Shown in pieces: positions 4,307-25,781 of a stretch of DNA of 38,465 bases. The stretch covers positions 1 to 38,465 of the forward strand of contig CAMLRX010000037.1 in NCBI GenBank assembly GCA_946482545.1, given 5' to 3'. The stretch is from an uncultured Flavihumibacter sp. Lineage in GTDB: Bacteria; Bacteroidota; Bacteroidia; Chitinophagales; Chitinophagaceae. Below the pieces are notes generated by a model. The model made no database searches and was not told where the DNA came from. It saw nothing but the letters and a program-made list of their open reading frames with translations. Position 1 is the first letter of the stretch. Every line of letters starts with the position of its first letter. The position numbers and the translations under genes were made by a program.

Positions 4307-5155
4307 TTACAGCGCGGGTGGTGTTTTGGGCGCTTTCTGCTGCGTTCGTTTCTGTTCCCAATAATATAAGCCACGGGTAATGAAATGCCCCATCAATCCG
4401 CCAACCAGTACATCGCTGGCCCAGTGGCGGTTGTCGTAGATGCGGGAAACGGCCGTTAAACCAGCAATGGAATAACAGGCTACCGGTACCCATTTAATAT
4501 GTTTGTATTCCAATGCCAAAGCTGTGGCCACTGAAATGGCCGTATTGGTATGTCCGGAAGGAAACGAGGTGTATTCCTTTTTAAAAGGTGTATGGAAGTC
4601 AAAGGGGTTGTCGGTATGCGCCGGACGGTTGCGTCTTGTAAAGCCTTTGAAAGTGGTATACACGGCCGTAGATACGAGCAGGGAACGGGCGCCCATCAAA
4701 GATGCGTGTTCCATTTTCCGGTCCTTTGTTATTTTGCCCGCGGCAAGCATACCCATCATAATGAACGGGAAATAGTTGTTGCCGAAGGGTTCCACTACGC
4801 GGGCCACTTCGTTGCCAAATTGTGTCCGGTTGGCCTGCGCGAATTTCTTAATCTCGTAATCGAATACCAGCGTGGTGCCAATGGCGAGCCCAGCAATGCC
4901 CGCGCGTTTCCAGTCTTTGCCCTTCCAGTGGAAGGGTTGTTTTACCGTGTATAAAAATCCTTGCGGAATGGTTTTAACGTAAGCCCAGTTCAACCGCAGG
5001 TATTCCTGCTGAATTGGAAGCGTATCTGTTATGTTAACCACCGAATCGAGTGGTACACGCACCGGGTCCTGTACCATCATGGTATCCTGCGCGGATGTTG
5101 TTTGGGCCCATAAATTTCCAACAAAAATTAAAGCGAGGGCAAGGGATTTTCTCAT
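4307..5155 (-). CDS. PAP2-family phosphatase, secreted or membrane-bound
   Basis: A 282-residue protein with an N-terminal signal peptide (about 1-22). All three PAP2 motifs are present: K170-x6-RP (KGFTRRNRP), PSGH at 199-202, and SR at 237-238 with H244 and D248 (SR-x5-H-x3-D). The catalytic histidines are therefore H202 and H244. Hydrophobic segments around 84-100, 128-142, 204-216 and 224-240 fit the six-helix PAP2 core. The substrate may be a lipid phosphate, undecaprenyl diphosphate or another periplasmic phosphomonoester; the sequence does not decide. Its start overlaps the stop of the GAF-protein gene by four bases (ATGA), so translation is probably coupled. It is the last gene of the minus-strand operon that contains polyphosphate kinase. 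Confidence 0.92.
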   Translation of the reverse strand: MRKSLALALIFVGNLWAQTTSAQDTMMVQDPVRVPLDSVVNITDTLPIQQEYLRLNWAYVKTIPQGFLYTVKQPFHWKGKDWKRAGIAGLAIGTTLVFDYEIKKFAQANRTQFGNEVARVVEPFGNNYFPFIMMGMLAAGKITKDRKMEHASLMGARSLLVSTAVYTTFKGFTRRNRPAHTDNPFDFHTPFKKEYTSFPSGHTNTAISVATALALEYKHIKWVPVACYSIAGLTAVSRIYDNRHWASDVLVGGLMGHFITRGLYYWEQKRTQQKAPKTPPAL

Positions 5156-7557
5156 GCAAATCCTGTGATTTTATTTTCCTTCCTGTTTTTTTCCACACTT
5201 CCGTAAGCGAGGTTCACCCCCACCCTGATGGCGTGTAAGCCTGATACGCCCTGCAATTCTTCCAGCTCCAGTTCTTCAAGATCGTTCAGCAATACGCCCT
5301 GCTCCTGCAGGTAATGGATATACGAAATATATTCCGCGGCTTCTTTCTGGTTGAAATAGACGATCGCGATTTTTCCCGGTTGGGTCAACCGCTCATTGGT
5401 GTTGCGGATGCATACCTTGTCGATCCTTTTTTTGATGATGTGGTAACGGATATTGTAGGTGCCTTCCACATCAAAACGGCGTTCATCGTTGCGGAACGAG
5501 ATGTCGATGGGATGGCTGTGTACGAAGATGAGTTGCGTGGTCCGCAAAGGCACCGCCATTTCCGGGAGCAACGCATGCGTTTTCCGGGCGATGGCCGCCA
5601 TGGAATCGAGCTGCCACAACCGCAGGTTTTTAAGATAGATGTTGTTGAACGTTTTATCCGGTGAGAGCGATTGACCGATGTACACATCGTATTCAACGCC
5701 ATCTGTTCTGAACTTTTCGAAATAGAACGGGAACTGCTGTTGCAAATCGGAACTCAGTACATCCAGTTGGGCACTCACGGTTTCGTTCACCAGGCGCATG
5801 GAGGCTTCGAGCCGACGGCGGTTTTCATATACCACGCCGGTGGAATCATCGATGGCGGAGAAGTATTTATTGACCACATCCTCCGTTTCGGGATGGGAAT
5901 GCCTGATGTGTACGAGGAAGGGATGCACTTCGGTTTCGAGGAATTCGTTCACCCAAAGCTGGTCGTTATCGGCCTCTCCATTCTCCACCGCTTCCATTCT
6001 TTTGCGGCATTTGAACATCATTTCGTCCATCAGGGCTAGTGGCACTTTCGCGCGCAGGGCGGAAAAGGTTTGTTCCAGTAAGCCGAACTGGCGGCGAAAA
6101 TCCACATGTAGCGCACTGTTCCGTTGCACGGTGGAATCCCGGATGTCGATAGCGCCGTATAACGGATATACCTGTTCGAAAGTGATGTTTTCCATACGTG
6201 GCGCGGCATTGCCGGCCATTTCGGCCCGCATGAATTTCCAGGCCACTTCATTGAATTTCCATTGCACGGCAGGTTGAAGGAATGTAAACTTGTCTTTGAT
6301 CACCGTTTCCACCTGCGTTTCTAGGTCCTCTATGGTATGTACGAGTAATTGTGCGAGCAGGGGCATGGCCGGATCAAGGCGCGACATCACTTTTTCATCC
6401 AGCACATCTTCTTTCCTGGTGTACACTTCCACCATACCCACCAGTTCCTGGTTGTTGAAAACGGGCACCAGGGCATAAGCGCTCACGCCATGGTGGTGCA
6501 ACATCTGCAAAAACTCATATTTGGCGGCCAGTTCAGCCGTAATTTTCCTGAAATAAATAAGCCGCGGCTTCTTCACATATTCTTCGGCCAGCGAATGGTA
6601 CAATCCTTCCGCCTGCCCCTGCCCGGTGGCAATGCTGAGCAGAATGCTCTGCCGACAGATTTCAGGATAGAATTTCAGTTTTTTATTGATACGCAGCAAG
6701 GGGAATATACCGAATTCGATTTTCTTGTCCTGTACCAGCGTCTGTAAAGCGTCGATTACGTCGCCATAACAATTGGCTAATTTTTCAGAAGCATCATTCA
6801 GGATAACGTTCTTGATGCTTTCCACTGCATATTCCTCCGTTACTTCATTCAGGGTGATCACCGTGATGCCTTCAAAAGCAAAATGATCGAGCGGAAGAAT
6901 TTTTTCGAAGATGGAAAAATCAAGTTGCTCCTGGATGCTGGATTCCACATTTTCGAACGTAAGATCAGGCAGTGGCTTTTTGGCCTTCACATCCAGGAAA
7001 CGTGTATCCAGGTTCACTTTGAAGTACCTGTTCAGGCCGGTATGTTCGTCCCGGATAGAGTACACCATATCTTCCCGCTGGAGGAACTTAAAGTTGAAAA
7101 GTCTTTCCAGGATAAGCGAATAGATAAACTTTACTGTATGGTCTTTGAACTCCATGCCGTACATGGTACAATGGTCCGGGTACACCTTATCGTGCTGCAT
7201 GTCATCCACGAGCCTGTACAACGCGTCGGTACCATAAAACACAACGGGGGTAAGTGGTGTTCCAAGCGCCCACAATACATTCTTCTCTTCTTCAAAAGAC
7301 GGCGAAAGCAGGGCGTACATTACTTCCAGCACCTCTTTGTACTGGTGCAGCAAAGTAACGTCCACCCCTTCTTCCAATTCCGGATATGGGGCGAATTTAT
7401 CGAGTACATACTGGTAAAAATCCTTGCGCAGCGTCTGTTCTTTCGAGGCCTTTTCCCGGATAAAACGGAGAAAGGGGCCGAACGAAAGGTGCACATCGGA
7501 ATTCTTACAGAAAGAAAGATCTTCTTCCGGGTTTAAATTGAGTAAAACTGCCTGCAT
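5152..7557 (-). CDS. GAF-domain protein of unknown function
   Basis: An 801-residue cytosolic-looking protein with no signal peptide or membrane helix. Residues about 255-410 fit a GAF domain, with a strand pattern around YALVPVFNNQELVGMVEVYTR. The flanks are mostly helical and match no catalytic family that I recognise: no kinase, GGDEF, EAL or HD motif is present. Long single GAF proteins of this size are common hypothetical proteins in Bacteroidota. The gene starts 25 bases after the stop of the phosphatase-barrel gene and ends in an ATGA overlap with PAP2, so it sits inside the operon. A ligand-sensing or scaffolding role is a guess from the GAF domain and its neighbours. Confidence 0.8.
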   Translation of the reverse strand: MQAVLLNLNPEEDLSFCKNSDVHLSFGPFLRFIREKASKEQTLRKDFYQYVLDKFAPYPELEEGVDVTLLHQYKEVLEVMYALLSPSFEEEKNVLWALGTPLTPVVFYGTDALYRLVDDMQHDKVYPDHCTMYGMEFKDHTVKFIYSLILERLFNFKFLQREDMVYSIRDEHTGLNRYFKVNLDTRFLDVKAKKPLPDLTFENVESSIQEQLDFSIFEKILPLDHFAFEGITVITLNEVTEEYAVESIKNVILNDASEKLANCYGDVIDALQTLVQDKKIEFGIFPLLRINKKLKFYPEICRQSILLSIATGQGQAEGLYHSLAEEYVKKPRLIYFRKITAELAAKYEFLQMLHHHGVSAYALVPVFNNQELVGMVEVYTRKEDVLDEKVMSRLDPAMPLLAQLLVHTIEDLETQVETVIKDKFTFLQPAVQWKFNEVAWKFMRAEMAGNAAPRMENITFEQVYPLYGAIDIRDSTVQRNSALHVDFRRQFGLLEQTFSALRAKVPLALMDEMMFKCRKRMEAVENGEADNDQLWVNEFLETEVHPFLVHIRHSHPETEDVVNKYFSAIDDSTGVVYENRRRLEASMRLVNETVSAQLDVLSSDLQQQFPFYFEKFRTDGVEYDVYIGQSLSPDKTFNNIYLKNLRLWQLDSMAAIARKTHALLPEMAVPLRTTQLIFVHSHPIDISFRNDERRFDVEGTYNIRYHIIKKRIDKVCIRNTNERLTQPGKIAIVYFNQKEAAEYISYIHYLQEQGVLLNDLEELELEELQGVSGLHAIRVGVNLAYGSVEKNRKENKITGFA

Positions 7558-7582: not shown

Positions 7583-10500
7583 TCAAAACCTTAACCCCAT
7601 GGAGAAATATGGATAGAATCCTTCTTTTGATTTTCCCACCAGCAGGTTAAAAACTGCCAGTTGCGCCGGTGAGAAATATAGTCCACCGCCAAACCCATGG
7701 TGCCAGCGGTGCGACACTTCGTTTTTCTGCCAAACCCTTCCCAGGTCGTTGAACGCCACGAACCCAGCCTGTCCCGGCAGGATGTAACTTGCCACATTGG
7801 CCAGTTTTATCCTGAGTTCCAGGTTGTGGTAGAAATTGTGATCGCCCGCGAACCGGTATTGCCGGTAGCCCAGCAGGTTATTCTGCCCGCCGAGAAACAT
7901 GGACTGGTAGAAAGCCGACTTTCCAAAGGTAACACCTCCGCCGATCCTGTTGCCCATCACAATGGTTGAACGGGCATTGAGGTTGTTGTACACGCTGATT
8001 TCCGGGACAAGTTGCGCGAAATCCTCCGAAAATCCGTTCATGCCTTTGTAAGCCTGCAACCGCAGGGCAATCCTGTACCCCCAGTTGGTGAGGACCACAT
8101 TGTTCCGTTTATCCAATTCCAGGCCCGTTGTTAATCCGAGGTGGAATTTTGCCTTATTGACGGTAACACTGTCATAAGAACCGATTTTATCGGTCTGCTG
8201 GATGAAGCGGCCGTCGTTGTCTTCCCCATCGAATTTATAATACTGCAGCGTAGGGCCGATAAAATAACTGAATCCTTTTTGCTTTCTCCACTGGAAGCCC
8301 GGATCGAACTGGAAAACCGAAAAACGCGTCCGGTGGAACCTGATGTGTTCGCCCGTCTTTTTATATTCGGTTTCGTTGCCCCTTCCGAAGAAGTTAATGG
8401 TATTGTCCGGGGCCCTGATCATCGCGTTGAGGGTGAGGTCGGCCTTCCCTACCAGTTGGTTCCATTCCCCGCGGTAACGCATCCTGTATGCGCTGGTGGA
8501 AAAGGAATGGGCCAGCATAAATTCCTGGATATGCGTGTAGGGCAGTTTTCTGAAACCGGACTTACCGGTGTAACGGAAACCGCCACCCAATATAAACCCG
8601 TCATCCAGGTTCAGCCCGATGGTGATCAGCGGCATCCAGGTATTGTAGAGGTTTACGGGTACCAGTGCGGTATGCAGACTATCTTTCCCCCATTTCTTTC
8701 GAAGACCGGTGGTATCGCCATAAGCCAACAGTTTTCCGGGGCGCGCATACACTTTGGCGTTGCGGGCATTGCCTTCAAAAAGTATAGGAAGTTTTTTCTT
8801 TCCGCCAATGAACCGAAGTTTGGTATTGCCGGAATTTTTTGACACGTGCACACTGTCGTGGCCATCGAACAGGTAAAAGCGCAGTTCACTGGTTACCTTG
8901 CTGGAGAAGGTGCGGTGCATCAGGGTATCCTTCAGTTCCCCGTCTTTATTGATTTTTCTCATCGTTATCTCGAGGTTACCAGAAGCATTTTCTGTGATGG
9001 AAAGCAATTCATTCTTATCGGAACCGGCAATATCCACCTTCCTAGAGATGAACTTCCTGAAGCGTTGCATGGCAGACACTATTTCACCCCTTCTTCCTTT
9101 CAGGTTGCGCAGCAGTTCTTCGTGGCGCAAGGCGTATTGTTCGGCGGGCAGACGGCGAAGGGACGCTTCCAGCACCTCATCGGTCATGGCGGTTACAAAT
9201 TCCTCCACGATCTGCATCCACCTTTCATCGGAGAGTTGGGTGGCCGGATAAGGATCGAGAAACTTCGTTTTAAAAAGCGAATACCTGGCGCTGTTGATCT
9301 GTTCATCGAAGCCCTGCAAGGTGGGTACGAGCCATTGCCGGGAAGCGAGTTTCGGGAACCAGCCTTCCGTTTTATGGAACACCTGGTCGCGGTCGCGGGG
9401 AACGGGCAGGTAAAATTTGTTCTTCCCTTTTTTGGTGTCGGTCCAGCGCCACTGGTCCTCGTGGCGGTCCCAATCTTCTACCAGTATATCGAGCAATCTT
9501 GCGCGGAGCCACATTTCACCATCGAAGGTATCGTCGTTATCGGAACGGATTTTTTCCATCATCTTCGGCGTATTGTCTGAGGAGCCGATGGGTTCCCGTC
9601 TTTCGAGCAGACAAACCCTGTTGGCAAACACCACATTGTGTTCACCCAACGCCGTATCGGGCGCAACGATACCGATGATGGGTTCCGCATGCGGCACGCC
9701 GGCGGCTTTTGCGAGCGGCGGTATAACGAGGGCCGAATAGGGATGTTGTGCGCTCATGGCATCTTCCACCCAGTCGCTGGCGAAGGTTTCCTTCAAACCT
9801 TCCGGCAACAGTACGTCCGGCGCTTTTTCGACAGACCGCAGCACCCATTCATTTCCCTTCGCATCTTCGAGGCGCAGCGATTTCGTTTGCATACCACCGC
9901 CTCGTTTGGTAGGTTTCAGTCCGCCCATAACGGACGAAATACGGATTACGGGTATTGTGGTGGGTGTAGCCCATTCTTTCCGGTAGTTTTCTCCGAAGAA
10001 GCGCCTGTGCGACCTGGACACGCTATCGTAAGCAGGCCTGATGGCCACAGTGGTGCTGTCTTTCGCATAAATTTGTACAGCAGAAAGTTCTTTCTCTATT
10101 ACGGAAATATAATTTTTCGTGTAAGTATAACTGTTGTCCGCCATCTCCTCTTCCACGGTAAAATAATTGAGAAGCAATTGGTTCCCCGGCATCAGGTCGG
10201 CCACTACGAAACCGTTTTGCGCTGTGGCGTACAGGCTGCCCTTTCCTTTGTAAATGGCCGAATTTTTAGCGCCGGAACCACTCACTACCTGCAGGATATC
10301 TTTCTGAATGAATTGCAGCCCGTGATCGTGTCCGGAAACATGCACCAGGTTCTGGTGCGCTTCCGAGGCCTTGCCGAGTTGGCGGATCATATCCCTGTAC
10401 AACGGATGCCCTTTGTCTTCCGCATTCGTGAACACTGTTCTCAACAAAGGATACAGCGAACCTACCAGCGGCAGCGGGATGTACAGGTTTTTGTTAGCGG

Positions 10501-11179
10501 CTGTAAGTGGAAAAAGATGGTCTTTGAAAGAGAATCTCCCCCCATGAACACCATAAGTTTCAAACGGATGGTGGGAAGCCAGCAGCACCACTTTGTGGCG
10601 GTTTTTATACAACAGAGCCTGGAGCCTTTCGGCCACATCGGCACGCGTCTGGCAGGCGCATTCCGCACCGGGATTGTTTTTGGGATATGGGAACAACCAC
10701 CATTCGCTGTCGAAAGCGATGATGGACAAACTATCGGACACTTCAATTTCAACGGGATCGGGACAACCATCTGCCGGAACGAGTTTCAGCAACGGATCGT
10801 TTTGTGCTTCCAGGAACTGTCCTTGCAATTTTATCTTCGCGAGCCCGTCGGGCCCCATTCTGTCCCAATCGTGGTTCCCGGGAATAAAATAAACGGGTGC
10901 CCCCTTGGCGCGCATGGGTTCATATTGTGAACGGAGTATTTCCGGCCCCCAGGTGGAATCGCCTTCACCAGGCAGGTTCATGCCACGGGGATAAACATTA
11001 TCGCCCAGGAACAATACCGTGGTGCGTCCCGGCAGTATCTGTCCCGCCGCAAGGCGCATCAGTTGCTGCTGTTTTTCATCTTTTAATCCTGCATCGCCTA
11101 TCAGGATCACCCTTGCCGTTTGGGCATAACTTCCTGCGGCCAGCAGCAGGTATACCAATAAATGTAGTGCTGTTTTCAT
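7583..11179 (-). CDS. ACP5-like metallophosphatase / kinase-like domain / Omp85-type barrel fusion
   Basis: A 1198-residue exported protein with a signal peptide (1-19). Residues 23-300 are a purple-acid-phosphatase-like domain of the ACP5 type: metal ligands D29 (GDAG), D60 and Y63 (GDNVYPRG), N102 (GNHD), H203 (SHHPF), H284 and H286 (GHDHG). Residues about 430-720 match no named family I can state, but WVLRSV (445-450), DWDRHEDQWRW (569-579) and PRDRDQVF (594-601) are arranged like the N-lobe, catalytic loop and metal site of HipA/FAM20C-like kinases. That reading is inference. Residues about 845-1198 are beta strands with GYRQYRFAG, similar to the Omp85 LRGY motif, ending in SMGLRF. The protein should sit in the outer membrane with its soluble domains in the periplasm. 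It has a consensus Shine-Dalgarno. It lies between the PPK1 and GAF genes. Confidence 0.85.
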   Translation of the reverse strand: MKTALHLLVYLLLAAGSYAQTARVILIGDAGLKDEKQQQLMRLAAGQILPGRTTVLFLGDNVYPRGMNLPGEGDSTWGPEILRSQYEPMRAKGAPVYFIPGNHDWDRMGPDGLAKIKLQGQFLEAQNDPLLKLVPADGCPDPVEIEVSDSLSIIAFDSEWWLFPYPKNNPGAECACQTRADVAERLQALLYKNRHKVVLLASHHPFETYGVHGGRFSFKDHLFPLTAANKNLYIPLPLVGSLYPLLRTVFTNAEDKGHPLYRDMIRQLGKASEAHQNLVHVSGHDHGLQFIQKDILQVVSGSGAKNSAIYKGKGSLYATAQNGFVVADLMPGNQLLLNYFTVEEEMADNSYTYTKNYISVIEKELSAVQIYAKDSTTVAIRPAYDSVSRSHRRFFGENYRKEWATPTTIPVIRISSVMGGLKPTKRGGGMQTKSLRLEDAKGNEWVLRSVEKAPDVLLPEGLKETFASDWVEDAMSAQHPYSALVIPPLAKAAGVPHAEPIIGIVAPDTALGEHNVVFANRVCLLERREPIGSSDNTPKMMEKIRSDNDDTFDGEMWLRARLLDILVEDWDRHEDQWRWTDTKKGKNKFYLPVPRDRDQVFHKTEGWFPKLASRQWLVPTLQGFDEQINSARYSLFKTKFLDPYPATQLSDERWMQIVEEFVTAMTDEVLEASLRRLPAEQYALRHEELLRNLKGRRGEIVSAMQRFRKFISRKVDIAGSDKNELLSITENASGNLEITMRKINKDGELKDTLMHRTFSSKVTSELRFYLFDGHDSVHVSKNSGNTKLRFIGGKKKLPILFEGNARNAKVYARPGKLLAYGDTTGLRKKWGKDSLHTALVPVNLYNTWMPLITIGLNLDDGFILGGGFRYTGKSGFRKLPYTHIQEFMLAHSFSTSAYRMRYRGEWNQLVGKADLTLNAMIRAPDNTINFFGRGNETEYKKTGEHIRFHRTRFSVFQFDPGFQWRKQKGFSYFIGPTLQYYKFDGEDNDGRFIQQTDKIGSYDSVTVNKAKFHLGLTTGLELDKRNNVVLTNWGYRIALRLQAYKGMNGFSEDFAQLVPEISVYNNLNARSTIVMGNRIGGGVTFGKSAFYQSMFLGGQNNLLGYRQYRFAGDHNFYHNLELRIKLANVASYILPGQAGFVAFNDLGRVWQKNEVSHRWHHGFGGGLYFSPAQLAVFNLLVGKSKEGFYPYFSMGLRF

Positions 11180-11185
11180 ATATAT

Positions 11186-11191
11186 CCTCCT
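11186..11191 (-). promoter_or_regulatory. Consensus Shine-Dalgarno for the phosphatase-barrel gene
   Basis: On the minus strand AGGAGG lies six bases before the ATG at 11179. Most genes here have weak or no Shine-Dalgarno, as is usual in Bacteroidota, so a perfect one is unusual. It supports this start codon and suggests strong independent initiation inside the operon. Confidence 0.7.
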
Positions 11192-11237
11192 CCGCCCCGC
11201 AAGCGCGGCGCGACTTAAATAAATTCATCTGTTACCA

Positions 11238-12071
11238 CTACTGCTGTTTGTTCTTCCAGCGGAAAAGCAGCAGGTTGGCTACTGAAATATCATCGCCTTC
11301 ATTGGAAACGTACATGTCGCCCGAAGATGCGAACACCAGCCCTTCGGGCTGCCTGAAAACCGAGGGAGCGAGGCGGTAGGTTTCCTTTATCTGCCAGTTG
11401 GTATCGGCCACCACCAGCAATTTATTCGCCGAAGCCATAATGTACCAGTTGCCGTTCAGCGGATGCTTCGCCATCGCAGAAGGATGCAAAGAGAAATTCT
11501 TCTTTTTGTACTGCTCCGGTATCTGCGATTCCGCCAACTGGAATGAACTGGTTACAGACAGTTTCCCGGCCGTATCCGCCCGCAAAACATATCCTGTAAC
11601 GGCGGGTTGTTTTTTATTTACTTTACAGGTTTTACACAGTACATATATGTTGCCACCATCAATATCCATGGCTTCGTATTCTCCTTTGGGCAGTATATTT
11701 TCGTGCACCACGGGGTTCACAAAACCGGCGGAATCCACGTTCAGCGGAAAGTGGAGGAGTTGACCATTACTCTTCAACACCCACACCTTGTTGTCCGCGA
11801 TGGAAACATCTTCATAATCGCCACTTTTGGCGAAGTTCACCTTGTGCGGTTTTTTCATCCCGGGTTTAAAACGGAACAGTTTTCCTTTTTCATCCTGCAC
11901 GGCGTACATGCTATCTGTTCTGTCGCCGTTCAAAGCGATACCGGATATCTCGGTAAGGTCATCGGAGATAAAGAATTTTTCGGGAGCGGTAAAATCATAG
12001 CCTTCCGGGTTTTTGTGGTCGTTCACCATACCGCAGGACACGAAGAACAGCAACAGCAGCGCCAGTGCCAT
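11238..12071 (-). other. Lipoprotein segment inside the PPK1 fusion (possible separate start at 12071)
   Basis: ATG at 12069-12071 would give a 277-residue lipoprotein with lipobox VSC and a C-terminal SdiA-regulated-like domain. The sequence before the ATG is a weak GGGG-type ribosome site. If translation re-initiates here, a free lipoprotein is made as well as, or instead of, the fusion. If it does not, residues 655-665 would act as an internal membrane helix. Confidence 0.5.
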
Positions 12072-14030
12072 TTTCCCCAGGAGCCGGTCCCATATTGCGT
12101 ATTGTGAGCGCACGAGTTTACCGTTGGTAAGGGCGGGAAGCGGACGTGCCTTTACATTGTCGGCCATCTGCAACAGCATCATTTCCTGCAAGGTTGCTTT
12201 CGCTTCCGGATCATGGATGGGGAAACATACTTCTATTCTCCTGTGGAGGTTCCTGTTCATCCAGTCTGCGGAGCCAAGGTACACTTCAGTATTCCCGTTG
12301 TTGTGAAAACAGAATATCCGGCCATGCTCCAGGAAGCGGTCTACGATCCTGCGCACGGTAATGTTTTCGCTGAGTCCGGGTACACCGGGCACCAGGCAAC
12401 AAATGCCACGCACCAGCAACGTAATTTGTACGCCGGCCTGCGCGGCTTCATACAACAATGCGATCATCGACTTTTCTTCCAGGTTATTCATTTTGATGTG
12501 AATGGAAGCGGGAAGTCCTTGTTGCGCGTGTGTTATTTCGCGGCGTATAAGCGCGGTGAACTTTTCTTTCAGGTTGAACCGCGCCACCAGCAGGTGCTGG
12601 AACTGAAGATCGCCGGCTTCAGAAGGTTTCTTTCCAGATACCAGGAAATGAAAAAGGCGCTGCAATTCTTCCAGCATATCTTTACGCGCGGTGAGCAACA
12701 GGTGATCGGTATAAAAACGGGCGGTTGTTTCATTGAGGTTCCCCGTAGCAAGGAGCCCCAGCAACTGTTGCCCCTGTTCCGTTTGCCGTACCACCAATGC
12801 TATTTTGGCGTGTACTTTCAGCGAAGTGCGACTGTGCACCACTTTCACCCCGGCCTTCTTCATACGACGGGTCCAGCGGATGTTGTTGGCTTCATCGAAG
12901 CGGGCTTTCAATTCCACCATCACAAACACCTTTTTACCGTTCTTCGCAGCGGAAATAAGCGCCTGTGCTATTTTGGACTGATCGGCTACCCGGTAAAGCG
13001 TTACATACACTTCCTGCACCGAAGGATCAATAGCGGCTTCGTTGAAGAAGCGCAGCACATTATCGTAAGAATGAAAAGGCGGGTGGAGCAAAATATCACG
13101 TTTCCCCACTTCGTCCAGCAAACAGGCGACTTCTTCCAAACCATCACTCACTGGCGGCATAGGTTCGTATCGAAGATCTGGGTTGTGCACGGGTAGGGAA
13201 GCCAGGTCTTTCAGGTGGTGGTACCTTCCTCCTTTTACCAGGTTGGCGCCACTGAGTTGAAAGAACCGGATCAAAGTATCCAATTGCGCTGCCGGCATGG
13301 CCGGATCATACAATACGCGCGTCGCGAGTCCGAAATCGCGTTTCGATATTTCTTCTTCCATCCTATCCACCAGGTCGCCCTGGTAATCGTCTTTCAGGTT
13401 CAGTTCCGCGTCGCGGGTGATCTTGAAGCTGAACGCTTCGGCGGAGGCGGGGTCCTTTGTTATAGCCGGGAGGTGCATGCGCACCAGGTCGTCGAGGAAA
13501 AATATATAGGTGACCCCGTTTTCTTTTATGGTCCAGAAACGCGGCAACTGGTCGGAGGGCACATTATAGATCGTGTTCCCCGTGAGCAGGTACAGTTTAT
13601 TATTTTCGGGGAAGAACTCTGTTCCTTCCTGCATTACAACAGGTTGGAGGAAACCCAGTACCTGCGTGTAAAAATAATGTGCGGCCCTTTGCTTTACCGA
13701 TTCCGGTACGGGCTTATCGTACAGCAACACATAGCCTTCCATTTCCAGCACCGGCAATAATTTGCGCAAGATGTTGCCGAACACCTGCAATTGCGCGTCG
13801 ATCTTTTCCTTCACCAGCGGCAGCACATCTTCTTTTTCCGTTTCAATATGCTGAAGCGCGAGCAAAGCGGGTATTCTTACCCGGTAGAATTCATCCAGGT
13901 TGGAAGAATAGATGGAAAGAAACTGGAACCTTTCCATGAGCGGCACACCCGGCGCGTCCGCTTCTTCCAGCACCCTTTCATTAAAAGAGAGCCAACTTAA
14001 ATCCCTGTTGTAAAAAATCGGTTCCTGCAT
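11238..14030 (-). CDS. ppk1: Polyphosphate kinase 1 fused to an SdiA-regulated-type lipoprotein
   Basis: A 930-residue single frame. Residues 1-652 form a complete PPK1: N-terminal YNRDLSWLSFN, the catalytic histidine H407 in VHAKIALV, the second-site histidine H569 in FLEHGRIF, and the usual C-terminal end around RSQYAIWDRL. PPK1 reversibly makes polyphosphate from ATP through a phosphohistidine. At residue 654 a new methionine begins a typical lipoprotein signal (MALALLLLFFVSC, lipobox Cys 666). It is followed by about 260 residues resembling the SdiA-regulated (YjiK-like) beta-propeller family. The junction lies exactly where one protein should stop and the next should start, so this looks like two genes joined by loss of a stop codon. 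An assembly error is possible. The gene starts 19 bases after the HD gene. Confidence 0.9.
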   Translation of the reverse strand: MQEPIFYNRDLSWLSFNERVLEEADAPGVPLMERFQFLSIYSSNLDEFYRVRIPALLALQHIETEKEDVLPLVKEKIDAQLQVFGNILRKLLPVLEMEGYVLLYDKPVPESVKQRAAHYFYTQVLGFLQPVVMQEGTEFFPENNKLYLLTGNTIYNVPSDQLPRFWTIKENGVTYIFFLDDLVRMHLPAITKDPASAEAFSFKITRDAELNLKDDYQGDLVDRMEEEISKRDFGLATRVLYDPAMPAAQLDTLIRFFQLSGANLVKGGRYHHLKDLASLPVHNPDLRYEPMPPVSDGLEEVACLLDEVGKRDILLHPPFHSYDNVLRFFNEAAIDPSVQEVYVTLYRVADQSKIAQALISAAKNGKKVFVMVELKARFDEANNIRWTRRMKKAGVKVVHSRTSLKVHAKIALVVRQTEQGQQLLGLLATGNLNETTARFYTDHLLLTARKDMLEELQRLFHFLVSGKKPSEAGDLQFQHLLVARFNLKEKFTALIRREITHAQQGLPASIHIKMNNLEEKSMIALLYEAAQAGVQITLLVRGICCLVPGVPGLSENITVRRIVDRFLEHGRIFCFHNNGNTEVYLGSADWMNRNLHRRIEVCFPIHDPEAKATLQEMMLLQMADNVKARPLPALTNGKLVRSQYAIWDRLLGKMALALLLLFFVSCGMVNDHKNPEGYDFTAPEKFFISDDLTEISGIALNGDRTDSMYAVQDEKGKLFRFKPGMKKPHKVNFAKSGDYEDVSIADNKVWVLKSNGQLLHFPLNVDSAGFVNPVVHENILPKGEYEAMDIDGGNIYVLCKTCKVNKKQPAVTGYVLRADTAGKLSVTSSFQLAESQIPEQYKKKNFSLHPSAMAKHPLNGNWYIMASANKLLVVADTNWQIKETYRLAPSVFRQPEGLVFASSGDMYVSNEGDDISVANLLLFRWKNKQQ

Positions 14031-14049: not shown

Positions 14050-15282
14050 TCAACGTGCCACCAGTACCGAAGCCACTACAAAGGCCAGTACCGATACCAC
14101 GATCCCGAACATGAACACATTATAGCCTACCCTTAATAACTTATACTTTCTGCCTAACACAACACCCTGCGAATAAATATCCCGGATCAGACTGCCATAA
14201 AGAAAGGCGCGATCGCCCATCACCGCTTCCATACCCTGGGCATATTCCTGTAAACTCATCTGGTAAAAATTCCCGAAGAACAGTAGGTTCACTCTTCTTT
14301 CCTTAATATCTTCTTCCGTAAAAGTTCCCGGTGGAATGGTGGGCCTGGTGGCCAGGATACTGAACACCATGGTAACCACGCACACGAACAGCAGCAGGAT
14401 CGCGGGAATGGTGAGGTGCGGGTATTCCTCCAGTTTGCGCAGCAATACCGACAACAACACAGATATAATGATAGAAGTTGTCGTGATCATGATGTGCGCC
14501 TTGTTATCGGCCATATCGCTCAGGCGCTGATGGTTGTTGGAACTGATGCGGAACATGGTTTCAATGCCGCGGTCGGGGCGGTCCGATTTGTCTTTTTTCC
14601 CTTCGCCTTTCCCCTCTTTTGGCAGGACCATACCAGGGGGAAGCGGTACAGGTATATCTTCCATGGTGGGAATCGCTTCCCCTTTGGCAGCTTCCGCTTT
14701 CGCGATCAGTTTCTTCAGGTTCGCCTGTTTTTTTTCCGCAAGATGCGTTCTGGCATAATCGGTATGGTACTGGTGCGTCTGGAACAATTTTATTGTTTTG
14801 TTCCGCCAGGCTTCTTTGTCGCAGTTTTTGGCGAAAAAGAACGTGCACTCTTTACGCATCAGCTTACTTTTCTCCGGGAATTCCTCCTTTCCCAGGTGGA
14901 ACAGGTCGGCATCACATACAATCTGTTCGAGCAGGTTAACCGGATTTTGCGGCATGCGGGTAGCGAGGATACAACCCTGTACGGCGGTAATATCTTCTTC
15001 CGGCGCGTTGTTCTCCTTTAAGAAATCCGCGGCCATTTCGGCCCCTCTGCGTTCATGGTCGGAAGGTTCCACGTAATAACCCAGGTCGTGGAACCAGGCG
15101 GCGGTATTCACCACGAACCTGTCGCGTTCACTTAATTTATAATGGTCCGCCATCAGCATTGCGGCGCTCACCACACCTTCCGTATGGGAGCGGTTGTGGT
15201 ATACGAGCCGTTCATCGCGGTGCGATTGGAAAAAAGCATCTACTTTTTCCAGTAACCTGCCTGTAAGGAATGAATAATCCAT
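14050..15282 (-). CDS. HD phosphohydrolase fused to Pycsar-effector-type membrane domain
   Basis: A 410-residue protein. Residues about 20-180 are an HD domain with ligands H33, H65-D66 (WFHDLGY) and D124 (CDADLFHLG), which predicts a metal-dependent nucleotide phosphohydrolase. After a charged, proline-rich linker (200-238), residues about 240-410 match the Pycsar effector domain (DUF5706 type). It opens with NNHQRLSDMADNKAHIM, followed by helices at 264-282, 292-311 and 386-407. In Pycsar defence such membrane domains respond to cCMP or cUMP, but no nucleotide cyclase is encoded here. The HD-fused form next to PPK1 is therefore more likely housekeeping signalling; both ideas are inference. 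It is the first gene of the minus-strand operon, 19 bases before PPK1. Confidence 0.88.
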   Translation of the reverse strand: MDYSFLTGRLLEKVDAFFQSHRDERLVYHNRSHTEGVVSAAMLMADHYKLSERDRFVVNTAAWFHDLGYYVEPSDHERRGAEMAADFLKENNAPEEDITAVQGCILATRMPQNPVNLLEQIVCDADLFHLGKEEFPEKSKLMRKECTFFFAKNCDKEAWRNKTIKLFQTHQYHTDYARTHLAEKKQANLKKLIAKAEAAKGEAIPTMEDIPVPLPPGMVLPKEGKGEGKKDKSDRPDRGIETMFRISSNNHQRLSDMADNKAHIMITTTSIIISVLLSVLLRKLEEYPHLTIPAILLLFVCVVTMVFSILATRPTIPPGTFTEEDIKERRVNLLFFGNFYQMSLQEYAQGMEAVMGDRAFLYGSLIRDIYSQGVVLGRKYKLLRVGYNVFMFGIVVSVLAFVVASVLVAR

Positions 15283-20428: not shown

Positions 20429-21298
20429 ATGAGACCGCAGTTATTAAAAGTTTCCCAGGGTCCGGGACACTCCTTCAGCGTACGCCGCGACCTGGTGCCA
20501 CACATCAACAACCGCTGGCATTACCATTCCGAAGTGGAACTGATCCATTTTGAACAGGGGGAAGGCACCCAGTTTATTGGCGACCATATCAGCCGGTTTG
20601 GTCCGGGCGATGTGGTGCTGGTGGGTTCCAACCTGCCGCATTACTGGCGTTTTGATGAACCCTATTTCCAGGAAGAACACATTGCCGAAGCCGATACCCG
20701 CGTGGTGCATTTTTCAGAAAATTTCTGGGGTGAAGCGTTCCTGCACCTGCACGAAAACCAGCCCATCCGCCACCTGCTGGAAAAAGCCGGCAGGGGATTG
20801 CAGGTGGAAGGTCCGGCGCGGGAAGAAGTAGCGGGAATGATGATGAAGTTGTTGCAAACGGAAGGTCCCAGGCGTATTTCGTTGCTGGTGGAAGCCTTGT
20901 GTATTATCGCTGAAAGCGGATCTGTAACGCCGCTTTCCTCTATCGGTTTCAAACACGATAAAGCTGAAGCCGAAGGCGACAGGATCAATGCTATTTATGA
21001 ATATACGTTACAGCATTTCAGGAAGAAGATTCAGTTGGAGGAGATCGCGGAGATTGCGAACATTAGTCCGAATTCATTTTGCAGGTATTTTAAATCGAAA
21101 ACCCGGAAAACGTATTCACAGTTTATTATAGAGATACGGGTGGGTCATGCGTGTAAATTGCTTATTGAAAATAACCTTAGTATAAAGCAGTTGTGTTATG
21201 AGAGTGGGTTTAATAATTTCACGAGTTTTCATAAGTATTTCAAGCAGATAACGGGGAAGAGTCCGTTGGCGTATCAGCGGGCGTTTAATGAGGGGTGA
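20429..21298 (+). CDS. AraC-family transcriptional regulator with cupin sensor domain
   Basis: A 289-residue protein from the ATG at 20429; a TTG 11 codons upstream is also open. Residues about 15-100 form a cupin-like sugar-sensing domain (HYHSEVELIHFEQGEG, then FGPGDVVLVGSNLPHYW). Residues about 185-289 hold the two helix-turn-helix motifs: LEEIAEIANISPNSFCRYFK and the second around IKQLCYESGFNNFTSFHKYF, followed by the usual TGKSPLAYQR end. Members of this cupin type usually control carbohydrate genes. The divergent layout suggests control of the altronate dehydratase gene, probably in response to a uronate-derived sugar acid. No -33/-7 pair fits well upstream. Confidence 0.9.
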   Translation: MRPQLLKVSQGPGHSFSVRRDLVPHINNRWHYHSEVELIHFEQGEGTQFIGDHISRFGPGDVVLVGSNLPHYWRFDEPYFQEEHIAEADTRVVHFSENFWGEAFLHLHENQPIRHLLEKAGRGLQVEGPAREEVAGMMMKLLQTEGPRRISLLVEALCIIAESGSVTPLSSIGFKHDKAEAEGDRINAIYEYTLQHFRKKIQLEEIAEIANISPNSFCRYFKSKTRKTYSQFIIEIRVGHACKLLIENNLSIKQLCYESGFNNFTSFHKYFKQITGKSPLAYQRAFNEG

Positions 21299-21738
21299 GC
21301 GTAAGACACTTTTTCAAATTAGGAATTTTTACTAAATTGACCTTGTTGCCGGCAGCGTCAATAAATAAACCTTAAAAATTATCCTAGTATGAAAGTCTTC
21401 ATCTTCCTTGCAGCTTTTTGCCTTTTTTCTTTCGCCACAAACTCAGGCTATCCGCTGACCAATCAACTCCCCCCCAACTAAACGTTGTGCTCCAGAACTT
21501 TGCTTTAGAGGAAAGTCCAATAGTAAGTGTACTGAAATGTATTCTGTATTCGAAACCTGCTGCGACGGCAGGCGTGTCCGTTCCGCCGCACTTGTGATTA
21601 TTTTTGATTGTGATTCCTATAAAATTCTGGATGCCGGGGTACTGAAAGGTCCCGGCTGTATTTACAATTGTATTTGATGTGAATCAGATTTGAGCGGACT
21701 GCCGCCGGCAAAAATTCAGTAACACGTCAATCTGTAAC
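21299..21738. other. Gap of 440 bases holding a broken small gene
   Basis: There is no intact gene here. The only content I can support is the frame-disrupted Cys-rich reading frame at 21389-21677. G+C is visibly lower than in the flanking AraC gene. No convincing promoter or terminator was found. Confidence 0.5.
21389..21677 (+). pseudogene. Frame-disrupted small secreted Cys-rich protein
   Basis: ATG at 21389 opens a 30-residue frame, MKVFIFLAAFCLFSFATNSG and onward, a good signal peptide. It stops at 21479-21481 just after a run of seven C (21469-21475). With one C removed the frame continues to a stop at 21675-21677 and gives about 95 residues. The second part has eight cysteines in some 65 residues (KRC, ELC, SKC, ETCC, FDC, GPGC, YNC), suggesting four disulfides in an exported mini-protein. 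I do not recognise the family. The cause may be a real mutation, phase variation in the C tract, or a sequencing error. The GLPGLI gene starts 61 bases downstream in the same direction. Confidence 0.5.
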
Positions 21739-22467
21739 ATGAAGTCAATCCTATTATTTCTTCTCATCACCTTTTCGTCACTATCATTTTCTCAACCTGC
21801 TGCTATCGGCTATGTAGTATATGAATTAGGCACTGAGCCACGGATTCAGACTATTGAATTCTGGTTCGGAGAAAATGAATACAACTACAGGTTTCAAAAA
21901 GAAGTGCCAGACTTCGGGAGCTTTGTGCTGAAAAGCGCCACCTCCAATCCCCTGGAAGATTCTCTCAAAAAGCAAAAACTGCTCAAAATGCTGGAAGAAA
22001 GAATTAAAAAGGAACCTGTGCAACAATGGTACGGCAGGCTGGGCACCAATGAAATTAACTACTCAACTTTCGACAATACGTTCAAATGTTATTGCATCAG
22101 TGACAGTATCATTCCCATTGCCTGGACACTTCAATCCGACACTACTACGATAAATGGAATAAAATGTCAGCGTGCCCTTGGAAAAAGAGGCGCTATCTCC
22201 TATCGCGCCTGGTTCGCACCAGGCATACCAACATCTGCGGCACCAATGGATTACCGGGGTCTACCCGGGCTTATTATTGCCGTAAACAGTGAAACAACCG
22301 GTTTTCAGATGAAAATAAAGGAGCTCGAATTCCCTTTGTCTTCAAGAACGCTGGCACTGAAAGGCTGCGATCAGGGAGTCTATATATCGAAGCAGGAGTT
22401 TTCAAAATTACAAGCAGAACAGAACAAACGGGTTCAGCAAAGAATTGAAACGATCAATGGCCAGTAG
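21739..22467 (+). CDS. GLPGLI family protein
   Basis: A 242-residue exported protein with a signal peptide (about 1-18). It carries the family motif YRGLPGLI at about residues 173-180, in the usual setting of a strand-rich fold (AWFAPGIPTSAAPMDYRGLPG). GLPGLI proteins are found almost only in Bacteroidota, usually next to a TonB-type outer-membrane protein, and their function is unknown. That partner follows directly: its likely start lies 11 bases before or 4 bases after this stop, so the pair is translated together. The gene is poorer in G+C than those on either side of the region. Confidence 0.9.
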   Translation: MKSILLFLLITFSSLSFSQPAAIGYVVYELGTEPRIQTIEFWFGENEYNYRFQKEVPDFGSFVLKSATSNPLEDSLKKQKLLKMLEERIKKEPVQQWYGRLGTNEINYSTFDNTFKCYCISDSIIPIAWTLQSDTTTINGIKCQRALGKRGAISYRAWFAPGIPTSAAPMDYRGLPGLIIAVNSETTGFQMKIKELEFPLSSRTLALKGCDQGVYISKQEFSKLQAEQNKRVQQRIETINGQ

Positions 22468-25162
22468 CGGAATGACGCGTAGACAATTCATGTGGCTGTT
22501 TCGATCTATGCTTGGTCTGGTAATCTTTGGAAGTATACCAAAGTCCGGAACAAGTCAGGCCAAAGTTTGTGGCTTTGTAAAGAATGAAAAAGGCACTCCG
22601 GTAGCCTTTGCATCTGTAACCGCAGGGCACGATAGCGCAAAGCCAGCCACCATTTTTGCCATCACAAATAAAGAAGGTTTTTTTAACCTCCCCGCTACCA
22701 GCAGTGCTCAAAAAATTTTCTTAACAGTTACACATCTGCAGTTTGAAGAAAAGAGAATTTCGTTTACCGTTCATCAACCATCCGGTAATTGTCCCGATAT
22801 AGTTTTGCAGGAGCGTACCGGCACACTTTCTCCTGTTGTGGTAACCCCTGACAGGCCTATCACAATGAAAGGCGACACCATCGTTTTCAATACAAAGTCC
22901 TTTTCAAATGGAAACGAGCGTTCTATCCTTGAACTTGTTGGTAAACTTCCCGGGATCACAGTACTGGAAGATGGGAAACTGCTGTTCAACGGGCAATTGA
23001 TAGAGCACCTTCTTTTTGAAGGAGAAGATATGAGTGGCAGAAATTATATGGACATTATAAGAAATATCGGACCAACCGGTATTGAGCAAGTTGAACTTAT
23101 TCATGACTATTCCGATATGTCGGATATTGGCTCCGGCTTATTGCCTACTCAAAAAAAGGCTTTAAACCTGCGTTTCGGCGAAGACCATATTTCTCGTTTA
23201 TTCGGGCAGCTTGGTGTTTCCGGAGGCTTGCCGCATGATACATATTCAGCGAATAACAACACGCTTTTTCTGGGAAAGAAAACTAAACTGGTTGCATTCG
23301 GCAACTTTAATACAACGGGAAACCTTGTTGTATCCCAATATTCTAAAGATGCTTTAGCAGCTTCTGAATCGGGAGCGATTGAAGTTACACTTCCCGTTTT
23401 CAAAAGCTTAGCCAGAATAGAAAGCGTAAAGACTAATCCATTGAACCATGAACAAATTTCCGAAAACACATCAGGCATAGCGAACTGTTATCTGAAAATC
23501 ACCCCATGGAAGAACACACGTTTTCAAGTTGGTCTTCGTTACGCCAACGACAAGTTCCAACAATCAGGGTCATCAGTTACCACATTCACACTCCCTCCGG
23601 CCATTTCCAGAAGCACTACACTTAACGACCTGAACCGGCTTATTGATGTGAACATCAATGGTAACATACAGTTCAACAAAAGGAATCAACTCCTCCTTCT
23701 GGCTAGAAAACATGCTTATAAAGTGCAACAAAATGAGCAATTACGCCTTTTGAACCAAAGCTACACGAACGATTTAACCGGAATAGAAAATCAGGAAGGT
23801 GGAATGGCCATCTGGAACCACCTCACCAGGCGAAATGCCCTGATACGTGCCGACGTTCAGTTTTCAACCGGAAGGCTCCCACTCGTTCTTCAACAAACTC
23901 CATCTAATTTTTCTGCGTTTTTCTTTCCCGGCGACGCCATAGCCAGTATTACACAAGATGAGCATCAGCGTATGCAGCGATGGCTTTCCTCCTTAACCTT
24001 CACGAAACAGATCGGGAAGTACCGCATAATCTTAAAAGCATCCCACAACCTCGACAGACATAAACTTCAAAACGACATCACAGGAATATATTTGAATGGA
24101 TTCAAAAATAGTTATGATTCAACCATACAAACGGAAACTCAACTACACAATTCAAAACTGGAGATAGTGAGCAACACATCCATATCCGAAAAAATAGAAC
24201 TCACGACAGGGTTTGCCCTGAATCATATATCGCTTTCAAACCATAACAACAAATTCGCTGCGCTTAACAAATGGTTACTCCTGCCTGATGTAAACCTCAG
24301 TTGGAAACTCTCTACTCATAAAAGTTTAGCACTAAACTTCAGACAGAAAACGGTGGTAGCATCAACGGAGCAATTCTCCAGCGGCTATAGCATTCAAAGC
24401 GATGTGCATATAGAGCGGGGAGCCTTCACTCCAGGCGCCAGCCTGGCCTCCTCCCTTAAACTTTCTTTTTCCAGTAACGATATACCCAGGAATGGGCGTC
24501 TTTTTTATATTAGTATCGCACTACAACAAACGCCGATGTTGTTCCTTCCGGAAATCGTGAATGATCCTCAATTTTCAATAATCAGGCTTACATCCATAAA
24601 CAAATATCTCGGGCTGGTCAATTTTTTTGTAAAGCTGGATCAGTCGATCAGCACGTCACGGTGGCGGCTATTGTCAGATTTCACCTATACCCACGTTAAC
24701 ACGGCATCCACCCTGAATGGAAACACCGTGAACAATACATTATACAATTTAAAATATTCACTTGGCGTAAAATACTTCAGTAAGTCCGCGGAATACTTAC
24801 TCCGCACCGAATTCAGGAACTTAATTCAGCGGAACAAAGCATATGCATACCGGAATAGCAATACTTTCTTTATTACACAGTCTTCCTTTGCACAAAAAAT
24901 ACGCAACAATTACTGGGGTAGTTTTGACATTCGATCCATGTTTATCTGGGGCAGTCAAAATCAGCCGCAGCATATCACGATCATGAATGCCGGAATCAAC
25001 CGATCCTCCGCCAACGGGAAATGGCAATTTGGATTAAAAGCAAGCAACATACTGAATCAACGAACCATTACAAAAGCAATATTAAGTGCCACTTATGTAA
25101 CCACAGAGCAATTTAATTTGTTTCCAAGGTATATTAATGCAAAAGTGCAATACAGTTTTTAA
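22457..25162 (+). CDS. TonB-receptor-like outer-membrane protein with carboxypeptidase-regulatory domain
   Basis: About 901 residues from the ATG at 22457; the ATG at 22472 (MTRRQFMW) gives an equally good signal peptide. Residues about 40-110 are a CarboxypepD_reg-like beta sandwich (GFVKNEKGTPVAFASVTAG). Residues about 125-220 are plug-like (SILELVGKLPGITVLEDGKL). The rest is a long beta barrel ending in AKVQYSF. No TonB box is clear. It resembles the partner proteins of GLPGLI genes and may import or export a peptide or other ligand; the ligand is unknown. It forms a two-gene unit with the GLPGLI gene, with low G+C in both. Confidence 0.85.
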   Translation: MASSGMTRRQFMWLFRSMLGLVIFGSIPKSGTSQAKVCGFVKNEKGTPVAFASVTAGHDSAKPATIFAITNKEGFFNLPATSSAQKIFLTVTHLQFEEKRISFTVHQPSGNCPDIVLQERTGTLSPVVVTPDRPITMKGDTIVFNTKSFSNGNERSILELVGKLPGITVLEDGKLLFNGQLIEHLLFEGEDMSGRNYMDIIRNIGPTGIEQVELIHDYSDMSDIGSGLLPTQKKALNLRFGEDHISRLFGQLGVSGGLPHDTYSANNNTLFLGKKTKLVAFGNFNTTGNLVVSQYSKDALAASESGAIEVTLPVFKSLARIESVKTNPLNHEQISENTSGIANCYLKITPWKNTRFQVGLRYANDKFQQSGSSVTTFTLPPAISRSTTLNDLNRLIDVNINGNIQFNKRNQLLLLARKHAYKVQQNEQLRLLNQSYTNDLTGIENQEGGMAIWNHLTRRNALIRADVQFSTGRLPLVLQQTPSNFSAFFFPGDAIASITQDEHQRMQRWLSSLTFTKQIGKYRIILKASHNLDRHKLQNDITGIYLNGFKNSYDSTIQTETQLHNSKLEIVSNTSISEKIELTTGFALNHISLSNHNNKFAALNKWLLLPDVNLSWKLSTHKSLALNFRQKTVVASTEQFSSGYSIQSDVHIERGAFTPGASLASSLKLSFSSNDIPRNGRLFYISIALQQTPMLFLPEIVNDPQFSIIRLTSINKYLGLVNFFVKLDQSISTSRWRLLSDFTYTHVNTASTLNGNTVNNTLYNLKYSLGVKYFSKSAEYLLRTEFRNLIQRNKAYAYRNSNTFFITQSSFAQKIRNNYWGSFDIRSMFIWGSQNQPQHITIMNAGINRSSANGKWQFGLKASNILNQRTITKAILSATYVTTEQFNLFPRYINAKVQYSF

Positions 25163-25218
25163 GAAAGTAAATTACAAAGACTAATTTTTCAGACCGATTT
25201 CCTAAAGCACCAGGCTAG

Positions 25219-25248
25219 TTTAGAGCGGTTAAATTTTCCCTACCTTCG
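25219..25248 (+). promoter_or_regulatory. Promoter of the small membrane protein gene
   Basis: TTTA at 25219-25222, an 18-base spacer, then TACCTTCG at 25241-25248, close to TAnnTTTG. The start codon follows 27 bases later. Confidence 0.5.
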
Positions 25249-25275
25249 CACCTCAACCAAGCAACCACCCTTCGC

Positions 25276-25770
25276 ATGAAACCCAACGCGTTGCCACCCG
25301 CTGCACTCCGCGGAAAAATCATATTACTGCTCCTGCTGGGTACCCAGTATTTTCTGCTGCTGCGCGGCACCATGAAGTCTGCCTTCGATTATACCTTTTG
25401 TGAAACATGTCCTACTGATTACCTGCTGATCGCTGATTGGATATCACTGATATACCTACCCGCTATTTATTACCAGTTGTACAAACGCCGCTGGTGGGGC
25501 TGGATGCTGCTGATTATCAATAATATCCTTTTTGTTACCGTAAACATTGCGCAAACAAAAATACACGCAACACACTATCCTTTCCAGGAAGAAATGACCA
25601 CAACCTTCCTGCTGCCCCCCATCGTGAAAACACTGGTAGTACTGCTCCTTTTTAACGGGAATGCAAAACGTTTTTTCAACGTAAGTAAAGGCGTTTTTTT
25701 CCGTACTGTATTGGCCGGATTAATACTCGCTGCGGGCATCTGGTTATGGTTGAAACGTCATGCAGCCTGA
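25276..25770 (+). CDS. Small four-helix membrane protein, unknown
   Basis: A 164-residue protein with four hydrophobic segments: about 13-30, 50-68, 75-92 and 108-124, plus a last one at about 143-160; four or five helices depending on the first. A conserved-looking loop CETCP lies at about 38-42, between helices 1 and 2. It ends with a basic tail (KRHAA). I do not recognise the family. It is a single gene, transcribed toward a convergent esterase gene, with its own promoter-like sequence. Confidence 0.7.
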   Translation: MKPNALPPAALRGKIILLLLLGTQYFLLLRGTMKSAFDYTFCETCPTDYLLIADWISLIYLPAIYYQLYKRRWWGWMLLIINNILFVTVNIAQTKIHATHYPFQEEMTTTFLLPPIVKTLVVLLLFNGNAKRFFNVSKGVFFRTVLAGLILAAGIWLWLKRHAA

Positions 25771-25780
25771 AGTATGACGT
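25755..25780. terminator. Weak hairpin between convergent genes
   Basis: ACGTCAT (25755-25761) and ATGACGT (25774-25780) form a 7-base-pair stem with a 12-base loop, overlapping the end of the membrane-protein gene. There is no clear T tract, so a bidirectional terminator is only possible. Confidence 0.3.
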
Positions 25781-25781
25781 A

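Follow-up and report, generated by a model that had tools for sequence, protein, structure and literature searches.

Barrels of the Omp85 superfamily are usually preceded by one or more POTRA domains. The accessible text of a 2014 survey (Heinz and Lithgow, PMC4104836) describes two kinds that lack them: 'Metallo' proteins, which join a PF00149 domain (labelled a metalloprotease there) to an Omp85 barrel, and 'noNterm' proteins, in which a similar barrel has no recognised N-terminal domain. Here we analyse a 38,465-bp stretch of DNA, hereafter the window, from an uncultured Flavihumibacter sp. (Bacteroidota; contig CAMLRX010000037.1, assembly GCA_946482545.1). One of its genes encodes a Bacteroidota outer-membrane protein, the target, that combines a phosphatase, a kinase-shaped domain and a barrel. 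The architecture looks like a variant of the known 'Metallo' kind with a new, distantly CotH-like kinase-fold family in the middle. We suggest, with a probability of roughly 0.6, that members of this family are outer-membrane-anchored phosphotransferases, often paired with a phosphatase, the activity being predicted from sequence and modelled structure. A preliminary description of the same DNA had suggested that a phosphatase and a kinase-like domain under a barrel would make a new kind of surface device. The phosphatase-Omp85 pairing was catalogued in 2014 as 'Metallo', and it is the kinase part that is absent from the accessible survey text, where the word 'kinase' does not occur and the 'Metallo' account mentions no middle domain. 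The features of the target, in window coordinates, are as follows.

7583–11179, minus strand: target open reading frame, 1198 residues, uninterrupted
11123–11179, minus strand: signal peptide, residues 1–19 (MKTALHLLVYLLLAAGSYA), read directly from the sequence
10100–11122, minus strand: purple acid phosphatase (ACP5-like) metallophosphatase domain, residues 20–360
9041–10060, minus strand: kinase-fold domain, residues 374–713
9824–9838, minus strand: beta-3 motif R448–K452 (RSVEK), which motif and secondary structure put close to the position of the canonical kinase lysine
9761–9763, minus strand: D473 (45 of 45 members), on the helix that follows beta-3, a candidate for the alpha-C acid by inferred role
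9443–9475, minus strand: catalytic loop D569–W579 (DWDRHEDQWRW), with D571 as candidate base and Q576 as candidate metal ligand
9377–9400, minus strand: metal-site motif P594–F601 (PRDRDQVF) with D596/D598, marginally aligned with the PxDxD of CotH
8690–9040, minus strand: all-beta linker, residues 714–830, no POTRA, from DSSP of the models
7586–8641, minus strand: 16-strand Omp85 barrel, residues 847–1198, C-terminal Phe

The N-terminus resembles a signal peptide and the last residue is Phe. Pfam recognises only the metallophosphatase (residues 23–218, E 2.3e-6), with no further family when the limit is relaxed to E 10, and NCBIfam gives an Omp85 family with a score under its cut-off. The phosphatase has the purple acid phosphatase fold and all seven metal-site residues, including the Tyr (D29, D60, Y63, N102, H204, H284 and H286), in agreement with the ACP5-type ligands described earlier. 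By fold and ligands it is a purple acid phosphatase, and acid phosphatase activity is predicted. The C-terminal barrel has 16 strands in the predicted structure, as expected of a BamA/TamA-type member of the Omp85 superfamily and in line with the Omp85-like motif noted in the preliminary description. With a PF00149 domain N-terminal to this barrel, the protein belongs with 'Metallo'. Residues 714–846 are predicted as strands with one short helical turn and no beta-alpha-alpha-beta-beta unit, and no POTRA is seen in the predicted structure between kinase fold and barrel. Among relatives, 53 of 57 full forms end in Phe, and proteins of 790–880 residues, mostly phosphatase-less, end mostly in Ile or Leu (51 of 62); the barrel-end signal may differ between phosphatase-less and full forms.

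So, is the middle domain a kinase? The earlier proposal rested on WVLRSV, DWDRHEDQWRW and PRDRDQVF, which start at residues 445, 569 and 594; its numbering was right for D571 and H573 and off by one for two aspartates, which are D596 and D598. Structure prediction and structural searches with Foldseek and VIA point to a two-lobed, kinase-like fold, with PI4K-II, CotH, CtkA, HipT and, weakly, Fam20C among the structural matches. D571, H573, D596 and D598 each occur in 45 of 45 homologues. A non-kinase fold and unconserved acidic residues had been named beforehand as the outcomes that would count against a kinase-like domain; with a kinase-like predicted fold and invariant acidic residues, both came out in its favour, and the reading is supported.

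Conservation was counted in 85 rows and separately in 45 non-redundant members (the window and 44 others, 13 of 57 having been dropped as near-duplicates). The latter are the best-scoring members and some hand-picked loci, a non-random set with a median identity to the window of 35% (lowest 29%). In all 85 rows we find R448, K452, D473, D564, D569, D571, R572, H573, W577, D596, R597, D598 and G606. All 45 members have R448, K452, D473, E526, D564, D569, D571, R572, H573, P594, D596, D598 and G606, and R597 is present in 44. Q576 is Gln in 44 of 45 members and once Asn, and in the larger set is Gln in 82 rows and Asn in three. By motif, the segment from GGGxQ to R448/K452 would form a Gly-rich hairpin and strand beta-3; D571 would serve as catalytic base, Q576 would stand in for the usual Asn ligand, and D596/D598 would make up a DFG-like metal site. 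These assignments come from order, spacing, secondary structure and a marginal CotH alignment, in which the WD of the catalytic loop is in register with the WD of the CotH loops, and not from superposition. The catalytic and metal-binding Asp residues thus have kinase-like order and spacing. Because the site residues are constant at 35% identity, they argue for a working active site, the group transferred not being specified thereby.

Several findings weigh against a phosphotransferase. The 20 Foldseek matches with E<0.001 have low TM-scores (0.24–0.54 relative to the matched structure) and root-mean-square deviations of 6.6–10.6 Å, with one of 18.4. Fam20C ranks 23rd (E 1.4e-3, probability 0.89, deviation 15.8), and the 50 rows listed from VIA include no Fam20C chain. 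Profile comparison by hhalign is marginal against CotH (PF08757; E 4.4e-4, probability 34%, 120 columns) and weaker against HipA (PF07804; E 5.6e-3, 6.5%, 113 columns), where CotH against HipA, as a yardstick, gives 3.8e-5 and 71%; the profiles held 29 CotH and 28 HipA rows, and L141, L167 and L177 were left out of 60 loci. In 85 members, 18 Pfam families were matched at E 0.1, with no kinase family among them, CotH and HipA included. A PDB profile search gave no significant match; the 13 listed, at E 0.24 to 0.44, are twelve chains named as metallo-beta-lactamases and CtkA across the catalytic loop. Clear sequence-level homology to known kinases was not reached. All homologue sets were gathered by middle-domain similarity, a choice biased towards members whose site is intact. 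Two residues also depart from the kinase pattern: by motif, and not by superposition, the beta-3 lysine place is held by Arg448 in 45 of 45 members, with the invariant K452 nearby, and Gln stands where kinases have a metal-binding Asn. No adenosine triphosphate (ATP) is expected in the periplasm, and a kinase acting there would have to take its phosphate from a source other than the usual ATP pool.

These departures could mean chemistry other than a kinase's, and the main rival is that the fold moves adenosine monophosphate or another group, or catalyses nothing and senses nucleotide or polyphosphate. The expected lack of ATP in the periplasm fits it, and AMPylating or glutamylating members of the superfamily are described in the accessible part of the KINtaro paper (PMC10870513). 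However, invariant acidic metal and catalytic residues are not required of a mere scaffold, Gln and Asn exchange naturally within the family, and the marginal CotH profile match spans these very motifs. We regard this rival as rather unlikely, if worth keeping in view, and prefer phosphate transfer.

The family is large. A search with residues 385–760 kept 5488 of 7997 candidates scored, and the 120 matches listed are about 1160–1220 residues long, or 735–935 without the phosphatase. With the middle piece alone as query, 1008 of 3829 candidates were retained, including stand-alone proteins of about 485 residues; many of the other matches listed are fragments. That some members stand alone, with no barrel, also counts against outer-membrane anchoring throughout the family. 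Source annotations include 'BamA/TamA family outer membrane protein', 'metallophosphoesterase' or 'hypothetical protein', and no annotation among the matches listed from the two database searches names a kinase. In a sample restricted to Bacteroidota, 112 of 296 genomes have the family. One Mucilaginibacter genome (L003, L081, L087) carries full-length and phosphatase-less copies about 5 kb apart, with a relative of the 801-residue window neighbour between them.

The phosphatase is a component that comes and goes within the family. It is absent from many homologues, three of the 27 close rows retain it in decayed form, and one protein with a decayed phosphatase (P0048) is sister on the tree to a phosphatase-less one (P0057), which points to phosphatase losses in that part of the tree. 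A tree of 91 rows requires 12 changes in the presence of the three-domain form, gains and losses merged, at least 10 of them on starred branches. Constancy of the kinase fold across the family is a consequence of how the sets were collected. The target could in principle be a phosphate-scavenging envelope phosphatase with the middle domain as a structural or binding module, as its purple acid phosphatase fold and ligands and the PPK1 and PAP2 genes nearby might suggest. Against this, it is the phosphatase that varies, the middle-domain site that does not, and the three-domain form that changes repeatedly; even with the contrast partly built in by gathering sets by middle domain, we find scavenging very improbable.

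At one locus (L185) the parts are three adjacent genes: kinase fold at 9051–10688, metallophosphatase at 10702–11913 and Omp85 barrel at 11910–13097. L198 likewise has three adjacent separate genes, and since the two loci are sisters on the tree, the split is scored only once. That the domains are fused in many genomes and lie side by side in these two argues for a shared function. The enzyme genes of both have their own lipobox-like starts by regular expression, a pattern that also matched the L185 barrel start. This bears on the idea of type V-like export, in which the barrel would carry both enzyme domains to the surface, as PlpD carries its patatin, to act on extracellular targets. The N-terminal position of the enzymes agrees with it, and surface delivery is raised for 'Metallo' proteins by patatin-like analogy in the accessible survey text (PMC4104836). 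Yet no POTRA is predicted between enzyme and barrel, and separate enzymes with lipobox-like starts imply that a covalent barrel is unneeded; export of this type seems improbable to us. The surface phospho-switch or secretion device of the preliminary description would go beyond these results: no POTRA is predicted and, as many homologues have no phosphatase, a two-way switch cannot be general, which also limits any reading that pairs the two activities.

In the window, the target lies in a cluster with all genes on one strand: HD-PycTM, PPK1 with a tail, target, an 801-residue GAF protein and a PAP2 phosphatase.

14050–15282, minus strand: HD-PycTM protein, an HD phosphohydrolase with a Pycsar-effector-like transmembrane domain (PF18967 3.2e-35, PF01966 1.1e-9)
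11238–14030, minus strand: PPK1 with an in-frame lipoprotein-like beta-propeller tail, upstream gene (TIGR03705 1.1e-188, residues 6–632)
5152–7557, minus strand: 801-residue protein containing a GAF region and conserved in its C-terminal half, downstream gene after a 25-bp gap
4307–5155, minus strand: PAP2-family phosphatase (PF01569 2.5e-21), overlapping the 801-residue gene by 4 bp

The linkage to PycTM is unexpectedly tight. HD-PycTM itself matches PycTM in PADLOC (1.6e-14). PF18967 occurs in 109 of the 296 genomes: 95 have both target and PycTM, 17 the target only, 14 PycTM only and 170 neither (Fisher p 1e-43, overstated as the genomes are related). PycTM lies within 5 kb of the target in 65 of 112 genomes and within 20 kb in 81, against a rough chance expectation of about 1.3 for a 4.2-Mb genome. 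In 32 further stretches of 8–20 kb around chosen members, HD-PycTM or a PycTM relative is found in 16, PPK1 in five and a class III cyclase in four (L178, L184, L188 and L189), and the three cyclases scanned (L178, L184 and L189) all show PycC similarity. At L184, target, cyclase and PycTM are consecutive, the cyclase being PycC-like at E 5e-7. The target sits beside the cyclase at L184 (7849–14225), L189 (4524–11763) and L188 (7921–13669). The L184 and L189 cyclases are TPR-containing and PycC-like with PycTM genes after them, an arrangement that resembles a Pycsar-like pair with the target as a putative third gene. HD-PycTM also appears as a chromosomal gene with open frames of about 400 residues in many genomes and about 200 in others.

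The PycTM domain is known mainly from phage defence, and the target might be an accessory of a cyclase-PycTM pair responding to phages, as the linkage and the nearby cyclases could indicate. However, phylum-wide presence, mostly one PycTM copy per genome and PPK1 adjacency look like housekeeping. No PF00211 (class III cyclase) was detected in nine window open reading frames scanned, no cyclase was recognised in the window cluster, and the protein P0001 has no PADLOC match. We consider a defence role highly unlikely. The 801-residue neighbour (P0004) was examined as a divergent class III cyclase and rejected: its GAIDIRNSS and KFRTDG motifs seemed reminiscent of cyclases, but this was not confirmed (hhalign of its C-terminus against cyclases 0.4%, hmmsearch nothing, Pfam GAF only). 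GAF_2 is found in 18 of 22 aligned members of its family, the GAF region being weak, and the highly conserved C-terminal half (DGVEYDIYIGQS, FDVEGxYNIRY, KKRIDK) gave no match. This family accompanies HD-PycTM and target in many loci.

Among 80 named loci, several of which end early at contig ends, 58 hold the full-length form and 22 the phosphatase-less form. Within about 8 kb, the 58 have PPK1 in 45, the tail protein in 48, HD-PycTM in 52 and a relative of the 801-residue protein in 52; the counts for the 22 are 9, 10, 10 and 11. PPK1 is present in 271 of 296 genomes, so co-occurrence is uninformative and only linkage informs. It is near the target in only 5 of the 32 distant loci, and the family also exists where PPK1 is not linked, both of which weigh against polyphosphate as a general donor. 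Given the near-ubiquity of PPK1, polyphosphate is a clade-level hint and not a family trait. The PPK1-tail junction lies near residue 652, with MALALLLLFFVSCG within the open reading frame, and the 'propeller' label of the tail comes from sub-threshold Pfam hits. In 50 relatives where both can be placed, PPK1 and tail are in different frames or have at least one stop between them; the joining in the window may be a real fusion or an assembly error. Elsewhere in the window, positions 21000–26000 have a G+C content of 0.41–0.45 against about 0.50 around, and are possibly acquired DNA.

How might such a protein act? The signal peptide would export it and the Omp85 barrel insert into the outer membrane, with the all-beta linker keeping both enzyme domains at the mouth of the barrel. 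Since barrels of 16 strands begin and finish in the periplasm, that is the side on which the two domains most probably lie. Binding of a phosphate donor would fall to the Gly-rich hairpin together with R448/K452 and D473, and binding of a metal to Q576 with D596/D598, and D571 as base could allow transfer of phosphate to an envelope substrate such as a lipid, lipoprotein or polymer. The phosphatase, where present, may remove or recycle the phosphate, and many homologues manage without it. The locus probably acts with a PycTM-type membrane protein, perhaps as regulator, and in relatives of the window also with PPK1 and a lipoprotein. Polyphosphate is one candidate donor, given the PPK1 linkage and the ATP expected to be missing from the periplasm, but the enzyme itself, so far as is known, resides in the cytosol. 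Of this picture, the domains, their folds, the invariant site, the joined or neighbouring genes and the gene linkage come from computation, and catalysis, the moved group being phosphate, donor, substrate, orientation and regulation by PycTM are inferred. A complete envelope phosphorylation system, with a non-ATP donor (perhaps polyphosphate), an outer-membrane target, a tethered opposing phosphatase and a chromosomal Pycsar-type control module (a cyclase or GAF protein with HD-PycTM), is a speculative and, taken whole, quite unlikely extension.

Our literature search recognised no description of the kinase-fold domain; it covered texts outside the supplementary family table of KINtaro, whose accessible part names more than 70 kinase-like families (PMC10870513). 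In the accessible parts of two papers, 'phosphatase' and 'kinase' (PMC12611786) and 'phosphatase' and 'metallo' (PMC12045153) do not occur, and those of PMC12599244, on bacterial pseudokinases, and PMC10281475 hold nothing on this family. A phosphate-starvation-induced PPK-like gene of Flavobacterium johnsoniae is described in the part seen of PMC8115612, with no link to the family established. A Riemerella metallophosphoesterase, considered as a possible characterised homologue, is an entry in the type IX secretion effector table in the accessible part of a review (PMC10202324).

The family has thousands of members and occurs in more than one third of the Bacteroidota genomes sampled, with no kinase among the annotations listed, and it places an invariant-site kinase fold in the envelope, where the usual donor is not expected. 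If it is active, single-residue mutants would give a direct test of which agent adds phosphate to outer-membrane molecules and from which donor. The linkage suggests a role for the PycTM domain in ordinary envelope or phosphate physiology. 'Metallo' proteins need re-annotation, perhaps with some 'noNterm' ones, our guess being that the phosphatase-less form of about 855 residues is 'noNterm'.

The parallels with described systems are partial. Type II phosphatidylinositol 4-kinases (PI4K2A/2B) match the target structurally at 10–11% identity with no sequence-profile match, and the target is a secreted bacterial protein. HipA, CtkA and HipT kinases also match structurally, with the low HipA profile probability noted above, and have a cytosolic or effector action. 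The Golgi casein kinase Fam20C is a kinase of the secretory pathway and a weak structural match. CotH spore-coat kinases match marginally by profile (probability 34%) and give no Pfam match, and in the target the domain is fused to a barrel. Mammalian ACP5 resembles the phosphatase, which differs in being joined to a kinase fold and a barrel. Patatin autotransporters of the PlpD type (type Vd) likewise carry a soluble enzyme ahead of a barrel of the Omp85 family, and the target differs in its predicted lack of POTRA. With the 'Metallo' subfamily it shares both PF00149 and barrel, and to these it adds a kinase-fold middle domain.

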